Source: Rhizobium sp. SL86 (GTDB taxonomy: Bacteria; Pseudomonadota; Alphaproteobacteria; Rhizobiales; Rhizobiaceae). From it: 64,000 bases of DNA. Where the stretch lies: the NCBI RefSeq assembly GCF_026672545.1, contig NZ_JAPPRJ010000001.1:2419501-2483500 (forward strand). Direction: 5' to 3'. The notes beneath the pieces were generated by a model, which worked only from the letters and a program-made list of their open reading frames with translations, made no database searches and had not been told where the DNA came from. Shown piece after piece: positions 35,224 through 38,925 of this stretch (within the stretch, counting starts at the first letter, position 1; each line of letters opens with the position of its first letter). The position numbers and the translations under genes were made by a program.

Positions 35224-35300
35224 CGCTCGTGCGGCTTTGTTTCGTTTTTGTTCACATCGCCGCTGGCCCGGGTGGCGGCAAACAGAGTAGGATTGCGGTC

Positions 35301-35813
35301 ATGAGCAACACGATTCGGATCATCGGTATCGACCCCGGCCTGCGCCGCACCGGCTGGGGCATCATCGAGACCTTGGGCAACAGCCTGAAATTCGTCGCCT
35401 CCGGTACGGTGACCTCGGATGGCGACATGGATCTTGCCTCGCGCCTGTGCCAGCTGCACGACGGACTGGCGGAGGTGGTGCATAGCTATCAACCCGACGA
35501 GGCGGCGGTCGAGCAGACCTTCGTCAACAAGGATGCGGTTGCGACCCTGAAGCTTGGCCAGGCGCGCGGCGTGGTGATGCTGGTGCCGGCTCGCGCCGGG
35601 CTTCCGGTCGCCGAATATGCACCGAATGCCGTGAAGAAGGCGGTGATCGGTGTCGGCCACGGCGAAAAGCAGCAGATCCACATGATGCTGAAGATCCTGA
35701 TGCCGAAGGTGGAGTTCAAGGGCAACGACGCCGCCGATGCGCTCGCGATTGCCATCTGCCACGCCCACAATCGCGGCGGCCACCGCATGCGCCAGGTGCT
35801 GGCTTCCGCATAG
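35301..35813 (+). CDS. ruvC: Holliday junction endonuclease RuvC
   Basis: A 170-residue nuclease that resolves four-way junctions after RuvAB branch migration. ATG 35301 gives [20 protein letters not shown]; the upstream frame is noise. The acidic catalytic set is present: Asp11, Glu71 (AAVEQTF), Asp143 and Asp146 ([13 protein letters not shown]). It is first of the ruvC-ruvA-ruvB set, which here is split by two toxin-antitoxin pairs. Confidence 0.95.
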
Positions 35814-35832
35814 ATGTTCTTGACTTGTTCTC

Positions 35833-35855
35833 CCGGTAAGGATATTTCTTACTGG
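35833..35855. promoter_or_regulatory. Palindrome ahead of the first antitoxin
   Basis: CCGGTAAG (35833-35840), 7 bases, CTTACTGG (35848-35855), one mismatch in 8 bp. It lies 15 bases before the antitoxin start, where TA operators usually are. The half-site GTAAG recurs at the second module. Confidence 0.55.
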
Positions 35856-35870
35856 AAAGGGAGCCGGTCA

Positions 35871-36122
35871 ATGCGTGTGACGTCCAAAGGTCAGGTAACG
35901 ATACCCCGCGATCTTCGCGAGATGGTGGGCATTGCGCCCAATTCCGAGGTCGTCTTCGCAATCGAGAATGGCAGGCTGACGCTTGCCCCCAAGCAGATGG
36001 TTCACCCCGAGGCAGAACGGGACCGCCTTGCCAGGTTCATTGAGACCCTCGACCGGCTTGAAGGGTCGGGCGCGCAGGATGTCGATGCAGATGCCCTGAT
36101 GCGTCTGACGCGGGACCGATAA
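35871..36122 (+). CDS. vapB: AbrB/SpoVT-type antitoxin (VapB-like), first module
   Basis: An 83-residue protein from ATG 35871 with AAAGGGAG upstream. The N-terminal 45 residues are an AbrB swapped-hairpin DNA-binding domain (MRVTSKGQVTIPRDLREMVG, then IAPNSEVVF). The C-terminal tail (ERDRLARFIETLDRLEGSG) is helical and charged, as expected of the toxin-wrapping part. Antitoxins of this kind bind their own promoter palindrome, here at 35833-35855, and neutralise the adjacent PIN toxin. The toxin gene starts 2 bases after the stop. Confidence 0.88.
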   Translation: MRVTSKGQVTIPRDLREMVGIAPNSEVVFAIENGRLTLAPKQMVHPEAERDRLARFIETLDRLEGSGAQDVDADALMRLTRDR

Positions 36123-36124
36123 TC

Positions 36125-36541
36125 TTGGCGGTTCTGGTTGATACGAATGTGCTGGTGGATCTGGCCGTTCGGGATCCGGCCTGGTACGGCTGGTCGCGAA
36201 GCTGTCTGATGAAGATTGCCGGGCGCGAACCGCTTGTGATCAACCCGGTCATCTATGCCGAGTTTTCTGTTCGCTACCGAGATATCGATGAGGTGGATCG
36301 GCTCTTGCCGCCCGACGAGTTTCATCGTGAGAGCCTGCCATGGTCTGCCGCATTCGCAGCCGGTGCCGCCTTTCGTGTATATCGTGCTGCTGGTGGAGCG
36401 AAGGATCGCGTGCTGCCTGATTTCCTCATCGGAGCGCATGCGGCGATCAGCGGATATGCAATCCTGACGCGCGATCCGAAAGGCTACCGCGCCTACTTTC
36501 CCGACGTGCCCCTTATCTCTCCTGAAACCCATCCGCTTTAA
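36125..36541 (+). CDS. vapC: PIN-domain ribonuclease toxin (VapC-like), first module
   Basis: A 138-residue PIN-domain protein. It must start at TTG 36125 ([15 protein letters not shown]), since that codon opens the PIN core 2 bases after the antitoxin. The acidic residues that bind Mg2+ are all there: Asp6, Glu46 (VIYAEFSV), Asp99 ([10 protein letters not shown]) and Asp117 (TRDPKGY). VapC toxins cut tRNA or rRNA when freed from the antitoxin. ruvA begins only 16 bases downstream with no visible promoter, so ruvA expression probably depends on a transcript crossing this module. Confidence 0.88.
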
Positions 36542-36557
36542 GGCTTGGACCCCTTTC

Positions 36558-37175
36558 ATGATCGGCAAACTCAAAGGCACCATCGACGAGATCGGTGAGG
36601 ACTATGTTCTGGTGGATGTGCATGGCGTCTGTTACGTCGCCCATTGTTCGTCCCGCACGCTGTCGCGCATCGGATCGGTGGGCGAGGCGGTGATCCTGTT
36701 CATCGAGACCTATGTGCGCGAGGACCAGTTGAAGCTGTTCGGCTTCATGAGCGCCTTGGAGCGGGAATGGTTCAATCTGCTGCAGAGCGTACAGGGCGTC
36801 GGCGCGAAGGTGGCGCTGGCCGTGCTCTCGACGCTGACGCCGTCCGAGCTGGCTAATTCTATCGCCCTGCAGGACCGGGCGGCTGTCTCCCGCGCGCCGG
36901 GGGTCGGTCCGAAGGTTGCGATGCGCATCGTGACCGAACTGAAGAACCGTGCCCCGGCCTTTGCGGGCGAGGCGAGTGGCACCATCGGCTTGAAGCAGGA
37001 GCTGGGCGAGGGGGTCGCTGCCGCACCGGTTGCCGATGCCGTTTCCGCGCTCACCAACCTCGGCTATTCGCGCGACCAGGCCGCCAATGCCGTGGCTGCC
37101 GCACTGAAAATTGCCGGGGAAGGGGCCGACAGCGCCAAGCTGATCCGGCTGGGTTTGAAGGAGCTCTCGCGGTGA
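36558..37175 (+). CDS. ruvA: Holliday junction DNA helicase subunit RuvA
   Basis: A 205-residue protein that tetramerises on the junction and loads RuvB. The N-terminal OB fold ([20 protein letters not shown]) is followed by two helix-hairpin-helix segments ([38 protein letters not shown]). The C-terminal UBA-like domain III ([18 protein letters not shown]) contacts RuvB. The length is normal and all domains are intact. It is flanked on both sides by AbrB/PIN modules. Confidence 0.95.
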
Positions 37176-37194
37176 TTTCCTTGCCTTTTCATTC

Positions 37195-37224
37195 TCTCCT
37201 TACTAATCTCACAGAGTAAGGAGA
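37195..37224. promoter_or_regulatory. Perfect palindrome ahead of the second antitoxin
   Basis: TCTCCTTACT (37195-37204), 10 bases, AGTAAGGAGA (37215-37224), all 10 bp matching. The right arm contains the AGGAG ribosome site for the antitoxin at 37233, so a bound repressor or an mRNA hairpin could both block translation. Confidence 0.7.
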
Positions 37225-37232
37225 TCGGTGCG

Positions 37233-37493
37233 ATGAATGTCTTTTACGGAACCATGACCTCCAAGGGGCAGACGACGGTGCCGGCCGAAGTTCGAGAGTT
37301 GCTGAAGCTGAAACCGGGAGACCGGATCCGCTACGTCGTTCAGGACGGCAAGGTCAGTCTGAAGGCCAAGAACAAACGCCTGAGCGATCTGGCCGGCATC
37401 CTGCATCGCCCCGGCATGGCACCTCTCAGTCTTGAAGACATGGATGACGCCGTCGGCGAGGCGGTGTCCGAGCATGTGATGCGATCCGAATGA
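37233..37493 (+). CDS. vapB: AbrB-type antitoxin (VapB-like), second module
   Basis: An 86-residue protein. An AbrB domain (TMTSKGQTTVPAEVRELLKL, then KPGDRIRYVV) is followed by a C-terminal segment ending [16 protein letters not shown]. The start could be ATG 37233 or the internal ATG at 37254 (MTSKGQ); the first has AGGAG 7 bases upstream. The toxin ATG overlaps its stop by 4 bases. A perfect palindromic operator precedes it. Confidence 0.88.
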   Translation: MNVFYGTMTSKGQTTVPAEVRELLKLKPGDRIRYVVQDGKVSLKAKNKRLSDLAGILHRPGMAPLSLEDMDDAVGEAVSEHVMRSE

Positions 37494-37888
37494 TCGGCAT
37501 AGACACTAACATTCTGTTGCGCCTCGTCTGTCAGGATGACGAAACGCAATCGAGGCTTGTGACGGCCTGGGTGGAGAGCCTGACGCCAGAGGAGCCGGGC
37601 TTCATCAACAGCGCGGTCCTGCTCGAATTCATCTGGACCGCCCGCCGGCGTCTCAAGATGTCGCGGGAGGAGTTGAAGCTGATCCTGTCGGGGTTTCTTG
37701 ATTCCGACAATCTTGTCATGGAAGACGAAAACCTGATCGAGCTGGCCCTCGATGAAATGGATCGTTCGACCGAAGAGTTCGCAGATATCTATATAGCTCT
37801 GAAGAACCGGGAGTTAGGATGCCGGACCACCATGACGTTGGATAAAAAAGCCGCGGAGCGAGTCCCCGGCATGGAATTGCTCGCATGA
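37490..37888 (+). CDS. vapC: PIN-domain ribonuclease toxin (VapC-like), second module
   Basis: A 132-residue PIN protein, [17 protein letters not shown] at the start, overlapping the antitoxin stop (ATGA). Metal-binding acids are Asp5, Glu46 (AVLLEFIWT), Asp99 ([10 protein letters not shown]) and Asp118 (TMTLDKKA). Its own stop overlaps the ruvB ATG by 4 bases, so toxin and RuvB translation are coupled. The sequence differs clearly from the first module's toxin outside the catalytic core, so the two are not a recent duplication. Confidence 0.88.
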
Positions 37889-38925
37889 CCTTACCCAATC
37901 CCATCCTGTCGCCGGAAAAAAAGGGCGAAGATCTTGATGCGGCGCTGCGCCCGCAGACGCTGGACGAGTTTACCGGCCAGGCGGAGGCGCGCGCCAATCT
38001 GAAGGTCTTCATCGAGGCGGCAAAGAACCGCGGCGAGGCGCTGGACCATGTGCTGTTCGTCGGTCCTCCCGGTCTTGGCAAGACGACGCTGGCGCAGATC
38101 ATGGCCAAGGAACTCGGCGTCAATTTCCGCTCCACCTCCGGGCCGGTGATCGCGAAAGCCGGGGATCTTGCGGCGCTTCTCACCAATCTCGAAGAACGCG
38201 ATGTGCTGTTCATTGACGAGATCCACCGGCTGAACCCGGCGGTTGAGGAAATCCTCTATCCGGCCATGGAGGATTTCCAGCTCGATCTCATCATCGGCGA
38301 GGGCCCGGCGGCGCGCTCTGTGAAAATCGACCTGTCAAAGTTCACCCTGGTTGCCGCCACCACGCGTCTCGGCCTGCTGACGACACCGTTGCGCGACCGT
38401 TTCGGCATTCCGGTGCGGCTGAACTTTTATACCGTCGATGAGCTGGAACTAATCGTGCGGCGCGGTGCGCGGCTGATGGGGCTCGGCATGACCGATGCCG
38501 GCGCTCGCGAGATCGCCCGCCGCGCGCGCGGCACGCCGCGTATTGCCGGCCGGCTGTTGCGCCGCGTGCGCGATTTTGCCGAGGTGGCGCGGGCCGAAGC
38601 GGTGACGAAGGAGATCGCCGATGAGGCGCTGACCCGCCTGCACGTCGACCATGCCGGCCTCGATCAGCTCGACAAACGCTATCTCAGCATGATCGCCGTC
38701 AATTTCGGCGGGGGCCCGGTGGGGATCGAGACGATTGCCGCGGGTCTTTCGGAACCACGCGATGCGATCGAGGACATCATCGAGCCCTACATGATCCAGC
38801 AGGGGTTCATTCAGCGCACCCCGCGCGGGCGCGTGCTGACGGCAACCGCCTGGCGGCACCTCGGGCTGCAGCCGCCAAAGGATCTGGAGGCGGCGCAATT
38901 CCGTCTGTTCAGCGAGGACGACTGA
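37885..38925 (+). CDS. ruvB: Holliday junction branch-migration ATPase RuvB
   Basis: A 346-residue AAA+ motor. It has [20 protein letters not shown], Walker [14 protein letters not shown], Walker [12 protein letters not shown], sensor 1 [19 protein letters not shown] and the C-terminal winged helix ([17 protein letters not shown]). It is intact. The ATG lies in an ATGA overlap with the PIN toxin, an arrangement I would not expect in ordinary ruvCAB operons. A phosphoesterase gene starts immediately after the stop. Confidence 0.96.

Follow-up and report, generated by a model that had tools for sequence, protein, structure and literature searches.

Two old slot-specific VapBC lineages in the ruvCAB operon of Rhizobiaceae: probable ties to the SOS response and to ruv expression

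Background

The closest described relatives of the system treated here are VapBC toxin-antitoxin (TA) modules such as VapBC2 of R. felis (PDB entry 3zvk), whose antitoxin we take to be of the AbrB type. This study concerns a stretch of 64,000 nucleotides (nt) from Rhizobium sp. SL86 (contig NZ_JAPPRJ010000001.1, positions 2,419,501 to 2,483,500 of the forward strand; hereafter the window), in which the Holliday-junction genes ruvC, ruvA and ruvB are separated by two different VapBC pairs, one at the ruvC-ruvA joint (CA) and one at the ruvA-ruvB joint (AB). The pairs resemble the R. felis module in their antitoxin-toxin order, their AbrB and PIN domains, their four catalytic acids and an operator-like palindrome; they differ from free-standing VapBC modules in that they lie inside the ruv operon and are locked to their slots, with the CA type following a LexA-type box and the 3' end of the AB type shared with ruvB. 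We consider it probable that they represent two ancient, slot-locked and probably active VapBC lineages that are wired into SOS and ruv expression.

TA pairs have been connected to DNA damage before. E. coli has SOS-linked TAs, and Kirkpatrick et al. reportedly described, in 2016, a TA inducible by DNA damage in Caulobacter crescentus, which is an alphaproteobacterium too. These damage-linked TAs of Caulobacter and E. coli are said to belong to other toxin families and to sit at separate loci, outside repair operons. As far as the accessible part of one article goes, GTTC-N7-GTTC is the published LexA motif of Caulobacter and ruvC is one of its SOS genes (PMC12700426). The motif and the repair genes are thus the same as in our locus, which differs in that an exact box lies inside the operon, before a TA pair, in addition to the near-box ahead of ruvC.

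One relative is on record with a VapBC pair immediately ahead of ruvA: RL3987-RL3990 of R. leguminosarum 3841 are vapB-vapC-ruvA-ruvB, and the part of the article seen reports, from insertion sequencing, that all four are needed for root attachment (PMC11406972). That part makes no mention of a second slot, recurrence, slot lock, a LexA box or a ruvB overlap, nor does it bring up polarity or an operon for this locus. In the open-access literature searched, we found neither the recurrence nor the slot lock, the LexA box or the ruvB overlap described; the words 'ruv' and 'Holliday' do not occur in PMC2701414, and PMC7593589 proved to be on another subject.

Results

Gene order and parts of the window locus

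The genes and the candidate regulatory elements of the locus are as follows.

35239..35253, + strand: one-mismatch LexA-type box GTTTCGTTTTTGTTC, upstream of ruvC (motif)
35301..35813, + strand: ruvC (open reading frame, ORF; PF02075, TIGR00228)
35816..35830, + strand: exact LexA/SOS-type box GTTCTTGACTTGTTC, 2 nt past the ruvC stop, including the -35-like TTGACT (35820-35825)
35836..35852, no strand: palindrome GTAAG-GATATTT-CTTAC across the -10 region (candidate TATTTC, 35843-35848), candidate VapB1 operator
35871..36122, + strand: vapB1, AbrB-type antitoxin, 83 amino acids (PF04014 E 2.5e-11, 43.8 bits, cut-off 24.7)
36125..36541, + strand: vapC1, PIN-domain toxin, 138 amino acids, CA-slot lineage type CA2, TTG start (PF01850 E 3.5e-8, 34.5 bits, cut-off 23.6)
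36558..37175, + strand: ruvA (ORF, profile matches)
37181..37209, + strand: promoter-like TTGCCT-17-TAATCT ahead of vapB2, missed by the consensus promoter scan
37196..37223, no strand: palindrome CTCCTTACT-N10-AGTAAGGAG, candidate VapB2 operator
37233..37493, + strand: vapB2, AbrB/PrlF-type antitoxin, 86 amino acids (PF04014 E 6.2e-8, 32.9 bits, cut-off 24.7)
37490..37888, + strand: vapC2, PIN-domain toxin, 132 amino acids, AB-slot lineage type AB3 (PF01850 E 5.6e-8, 33.9 bits, cut-off 23.6)
37865..37888, + strand: last eight vapC2 codons (PGMELLA, stop), with a putative second role as ruvB translation-start region
37885..38925, + strand: ruvB, start codon within the vapC2 end (ORF, profile matches)

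The order ruvC - vapB1/vapC1 - ruvA - vapB2/vapC2 - ruvB, proposed by an original prediction that had only the letters of the window and a list of its ORFs to go on, is borne out by the ORFs and Pfam matches, as are the spacings it gave: 2 bases on the antitoxin side and 16 on the ruvA side of the first toxin, and 4-base overlaps at antitoxin2/toxin2 and toxin2/ruvB. Both PIN toxins possess all four of the metal-binding acids it had seen (VapC1 D6/E46/D99/D117; VapC2 D5/E46/D99/D118), and in both pairs an antitoxin with a DNA-binding domain (PF04014, MazE/AbrB, above cut-off) stands upstream of the toxin, adjacent to or overlapping it. Its statement that no promoter was obvious holds for ruvA and ruvB alone and fails for the cassettes, each of which has, by eye, a promoter-like region and a palindrome just ahead of its antitoxin; a consensus promoter scan reported neither cassette promoter, and terminator matches stayed at the shuffled level. 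Transcripts of ruvA and ruvB would, on this layout, have to start at the TA genes or read through them.

Occupied joints throughout the family

The arrangement was compared across three sets of loci, namely the named loci around RuvA (the best 80 of 482 relatives), 57 genomes from the genus of the window, including that of the window, and one locus each from 59 further genera of the GTDB family, chosen among those with a RuvA place listed (at least 247 genomes and at least 109 genera), the most distant genera being absent. All three ruv genes were placed on one strand in 193 of 196 annotated loci; after exclusion of the 3 without one gene on the fetched stretch and of 14 loci identical over ruvC-ruvB, 179 loci distinct over the region remained, near-identical ones still among them. 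Toxin and antitoxin ORFs in the gaps were scored by profiles grown from the window's pairs.

A full-length PIN toxin occupies the CA joint in 101 and the AB joint in 106 of the 179 distinct loci: both joints are occupied in 74, CA only in 27, AB only in 32 and neither in 46, with a Fisher odds ratio for co-occupancy of 3.9 (kinship ignored). The one-per-genus set (n=59) comprises 12 loci with both joints occupied, 9 with CA only, 11 with AB only and 25 with neither, the remainder being one locus with AB occupied and ruvC not placed, and one with CA empty and AB not scorable. Occupancy is close to all-or-none. The 196 annotated loci have 217 gaps measuring 500-899 nt, and all but one of these (216) contain exactly one toxin and one antitoxin ORF on the operon strand, which led us to reject other kinds of insert at these lengths; the sole exception is a 519-nt AB gap (L204) with neither ORF, and no minus-strand TA match was found in any gap of these loci. 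A one-off insertion in a single genome was likewise rejected, the same arrangement being present in many genera. The gene-order comparison proposed along with the original prediction thus found the arrangement to recur, and rarity of the order was not supported.

Some slots contain more than one pair. Tandem toxins, with two antitoxins each by profile, occur in the AB gap of L038 (1568 nt) and the CA gap of L167 (1523 nt), the AB gap of L042 (1568 nt) contains two toxins, one split in two pieces, and three toxin ORFs surround ruvA in L238; slots can accumulate cassettes. VapBC was not found by profile in the long AB gaps of L204, L185, L189 and L198 or in most long gaps of L240-L279, and several of these VapBC-free gaps contain other ORFs. 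Within R. leguminosarum, both slots are occupied in L103 (Tri-43), and the consecutive numbers RL3989-3990 for ruvA-ruvB suggest an empty AB slot in 3841, a possible polymorphism within the species.

The survey outside the family took in the 126 of 130 genomes of the order that do not belong to it, 121 with both genes listed. Gaps were measurable for 113 CA and 109 AB joints, and 93 and 72 of these, respectively, were shorter than 250 nt; at least one of the two gaps reached 250 nt in 49 genomes, of which 40 were fetched and 9 were not (hand count). VapBC was present in the CA joint of four of the 40 (L243, L244, L247, L249) and in the AB joint of two (L263, L266). On the tree these toxins group with those of their own joint, the clade around L243 and L247 being without support and that of L263 and L266 also including copies from outside ruv.

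Each joint has its own lineage

A toxin tree was built with ORFs shorter than 110 amino acids excluded and with the window's toxins entered as L104, their duplicates L019 and L020 being left out. The CA toxins form a group of 103 CA-slot members and 10 non-ruv relatives (support 100), and the AB toxins one of 109 AB-slot members, 9 non-ruv relatives and L013 (support 99). The CA/AB label changes once on this tree, as against 65-80 times when shuffled (103 CA, 109 AB), and once on the antitoxin tree, as against 64-79 times (102 CA, 109 AB). Two separate old entries into the ruv operon, one per joint, are therefore well supported, because each joint has its own toxin lineage; the original prediction of two separate insertions is upheld by the antitoxins as well. 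The window's two TAs as recent copies of each other were rejected by BLASTP (VapC1 against VapC2, E 0.002 over 48 residues), by profile comparison (probability 55) and by the trees, in keeping with the predicted lack of close similarity.

In family-wide searches, the best matches of VapC2 mostly adjoin ruvA (by eye, in genomes with a ruvA place listed), at least two, in G272 and G168, not lying beside it; VapC1 matches are intermixed with non-ruv copies from about 53% identity downwards. The genome of the window (5.98 Mb) has 23 PIN matches, both window toxins included. One of its non-ruv PIN proteins is L013 (G000:C9:932809-933153), whose long branch lies within the group of AB-slot toxins, and two adjacent partial PIN matches, L022 and L023 (G000:C1:323583-323965), are maybe one broken PIN gene.

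An exact LexA-type motif shared by all occupied CA slots

Exact GTTC-N7-GTTC is present in the opening 150 nt of the CA gap in all 101 occupied slots, in 8 of 9 scarred and in 9 of 69 empty ones, and the same 15-mer makes up 115 of 118 CA-gap copies; simple shuffles of the gaps gave 0.3%, and AB gaps 0 of 179. From the end of the box to the antitoxin start the distance is most commonly 37 nt (in 49 of at least 97 loci with a measurement), and the box contains the -35-like hexamer TTGACT, followed in the window by the palindrome over the -10 region. Because every occupied CA slot has this exact box, we see a link to the SOS response beyond autoregulation by the TA. The same genome encodes LexA (PF01726 match), its lexA carries an exact box at -58, and its recA has one-mismatch sites alone, the nearest at -73. 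A box with one mismatch or better is also found ahead of ruvC, at a distance of no more than 150 nt, in 162 of 179 loci (exact in 6), as against 20 of 179 AB gaps and 8 of 179 starts of ruvC as controls. LexA is predicted to bind at the box at 35816, and VapBC1 looks to be under SOS control and positioned to drive ruvA.

A different order of events would make the box and promoter an older internal ruvAB promoter, downstream of which the TA inserted and which it now uses, a proposal that does not exclude ours and differs on order. It would fit the nine empty CA slots that retain the box, the TA-free CA gaps with a box outside the family (in L267 directly behind ruvC, gap length 143 nt, and in L251 towards the 3' end, gap length 776 nt), and the lack of a box in the ten non-ruv relatives of CA type, so that arrival together with the TA is not indicated. 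We regard it as somewhat unlikely, given the absence of the box from 60 of 69 empty CA slots and of the exact box from 34 of 36 fetched out-of-family loci free of a CA cassette, many of whose gaps are a few bases long.

The AB toxin end and the ruvB start

At the second joint, the overlap of the toxin gene with ruvB is exactly 4 bases long in 97 of the 102 AB slots with a single TA. The toxin C-terminus is nearly fixed (M 104, E 107, L 105 and L 107 of 107; PGMELL in 81), and MELL is missing at this place from all nine non-ruv relatives of AB type that were fetched. Third-position information over the last eight toxin codons is 1.25, 0.63, 1.92, 1.64, 0.52, 0.82, 1.47 and 1.92 bits, the two columns of 1.92 bits being ATG and stop, whereas the preceding 32 codons mostly range from 0.1 to 0.5 bits, with four columns near 1. 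By this measure the nucleotides at the AB toxin end are constrained, as expected of a translation-start region. Moreover, the toxin's final codons alone are kept in some empty AB slots (L028, L026, L079). The AB toxin 3' end seems to be the ruvB translation-start region, and we infer translational coupling between vapC2 and ruvB. As for the CA-slot toxin end (window 36524-36541), an ETHP-type motif is kept as protein, with no third-position rise, and is absent from the ten non-ruv relatives fetched.

Exchange, loss and decay of cassettes

On a weakly resolved tree of the RuvC, RuvA and RuvB proteins, slot state changes 47 times for CA (shuffled mean 86) and 79 times for AB (shuffled mean 105); read on this tree, slot states carry a kinship signal above chance, yet show much turnover. 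Among 113 pairs of loci with ruv identity above 90%, 49 differ in a slot, and loci about 95% identical there can carry clearly different pairs in one joint. L127 and L132, for example, share 94-97% identity in 300 nt on each flank and 55% between them (AB1 and AB2, respectively), L028 and L034 differ in both slots, and L071 has a TA at the site where L077 has 126 nt. Both joints are, as these comparisons have it, exchangeable slots, and homologous recombination via the conserved ruv flanks is the simplest and most likely mechanism of cassette exchange.

Cassettes have also decayed. Some slots contain decayed remnants, with partial toxin ORFs in the AB slots of L093 and L101, and 18 of 69 AB and 11 of 51 CA empty or scarred slots that could be tested show, before the downstream gene, a resemblance to the toxin 3' end that exceeds the 99th percentile of shuffled sequences, a sign of earlier occupancy. 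In the scarred CA gap of L108 (288 nt), the LexA-type box is kept and short direct repeats lie, by eye, at the site of the TA genes. Because empty and remnant slots exist in nature, loss of a TA is survivable at least sometimes; the strict addiction that the original prediction had raised, in which loss of the operon would be lethal, is at odds with these remnants and with the 25 of 59 one-per-genus loci in which neither joint has a full-length toxin.

Turnover on this scale, the remnants, the different pairs in close loci and the greater synonymous divergence of the TA genes given below might also be expected of selfish passengers in a safe harbour, kept by conserved, easily exchanging ruv flanks and by hindered clean removal, with no benefit to the cell. 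An overprinted ruvB start is compatible with passengers and with cassettes wired into ruv expression alike. We consider passengers unlikely, as neither the near-invariant LexA-type box in 101 of 101 occupied CA slots nor the strict slot identity would be predicted by such a reading on its own.

Signs that the toxins are kept functional

The catalytic acids are nearly invariant, at 102, 102, 101 and 101 of 102 CA toxins and at 107, 107, 104 and 105 of 107 AB toxins for the four positions. For close pairs, the median ratio of nonsynonymous to synonymous substitution (dN/dS) is 0.096-0.107 in the four TA genes versus 0.019-0.024 in the ruv genes, and the median proportion of synonymous differences (pS) is 0.52-0.57 versus 0.32-0.36, a comparison whose pair sets differ, TA genes having been compared where slot types match, and in which ruv synonymous sites may be constrained. 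A palindrome with arms of at least 7 precedes the antitoxin in 68 of 101 CA and 52 of 106 AB slots (shuffles, 4.4% and 2.8%). The structural model of VapC1 (pLDDT 94.7) resembles known VapCs in fold, R. felis VapBC2 being the best match (3zvk; template modelling score, TM, 0.74; E 1.5e-7). A PADLOC search with the four TA proteins yielded nothing at E 0.01, and single-sequence PDB searches gave no convincing relative; by profile, the closest solved relative of the AB toxins is PcrIIC1, a CbCas9-bound protein (8wmm, E 2.4e-6). We conclude that both VapBC cassettes are probably active. That they are domesticated regulators with marginal VapC activity, kept mainly as promoter, operator and ribosome-binding modules, we hold to be quite improbable: the overprinted ruvB start, the partial toxin ORFs of L093 and L101 and the final codons kept in empty slots would suit it, and the near-invariant catalytic acids and a dN/dS of about 0.10 in toxin and antitoxin alike speak against it.

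Discussion

The reading that we prefer is of two slot-locked VapBC lineages wired into SOS and ruv expression. Two distinct AbrB-PIN lineages would have entered both ruv joints before or during the diversification of the Rhizobiaceae and would have been slot-specific since, while alleles within a slot were lost, decayed or exchanged between species. A LexA-box promoter and an AbrB-type palindrome would precede the CA cassette, and DNA damage would accordingly raise vapBC1 together with ruvA and the downstream genes; the AB cassette would have a promoter-like region of its own, with its toxin 3' end serving the ruvB translation start. While DNA is intact, LexA and VapBC would repress; in the SOS response, RuvA(B) and the TA would rise together. 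TA antitoxins are labile, and from this general biology a labile antitoxin may free VapC to slow growth during repair.

Several observations weigh against this reading. The AlphaFold2 model of VapC2 (pLDDT 95.4) superposed poorly on known VapCs when taken whole, the poor fit lying beyond about residue 80, and the NCBIfam VapC model scored below its cut-off for VapC1 (20.4 versus 80 bits) and did not match VapC2. The palindromes ahead of the antitoxins are limited to the two fractions given above, and in 46 of 179 loci both joints lack a full-length toxin. The tree that served to count slot changes was built from the ruv proteins themselves; its resolution is weak, and recombination may affect it. 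The LexA-type motif is not rare, with 207 exact copies in the genome versus 102 for a reversed-pattern control, so that the SOS case rests on conservation and place. The nine empty CA slots that retain the box, several of them near-identical loci, and the near-box that ruvC has upstream of it mean that SOS control of ruv need not run through the cassette; and the exact box is absent from the four out-of-family CA cassettes, as from the ten CA-type non-ruv relatives, and present in the CA gap of two out-of-family loci (L251, L267) without a CA cassette.

The interpretation offered by the original prediction, in which Holliday-junction processing might come to depend on TA autoregulation, was partly right and understated the SOS and translation side. 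As to the contrary possibility it had named, that both toxins are inactive and the order common and neutral in the clade, the order has turned out to be common, and it is in this respect alone that the possibility agrees with our results.

A stronger version of our reading, which we put forward tentatively, sees a repair operon in which TA cassettes have a working role: the LexA/VapB promoter of one VapBC, triggered by SOS, would set the supply of RuvA(B), and the toxin gene of a second VapBC would carry the ruvB ribosome-binding region and could then not be removed without harm to ruvB. Growth arrest and Holliday-junction processing might thereby form one damage-gated unit held by shared nucleotides, with two fixed sites at which the exchange of cassettes renews the toxins.

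Why chromosomes retain so many toxin-antitoxin pairs is a long-standing question. The 179 distinct loci amount to a natural experiment, with two sites and two lineages in occupied, swapped, remnant and empty forms and with the catalytic residues kept. They make directly testable whether a TA serves the SOS response and whether it sets the expression of neighbouring repair genes, and further whether an overprinted translation start of a neighbour is a reason for TA retention. For R. leguminosarum, a ruv phenotype on loss of the toxin gene is the outcome that polar effects on ruvAB would produce. A transposon in one of these vapBC genes may owe its effect to ruvA and ruvB, a caution for transposon screens such as the one for root attachment in that species, as described in the part of the article seen (PMC11406972).

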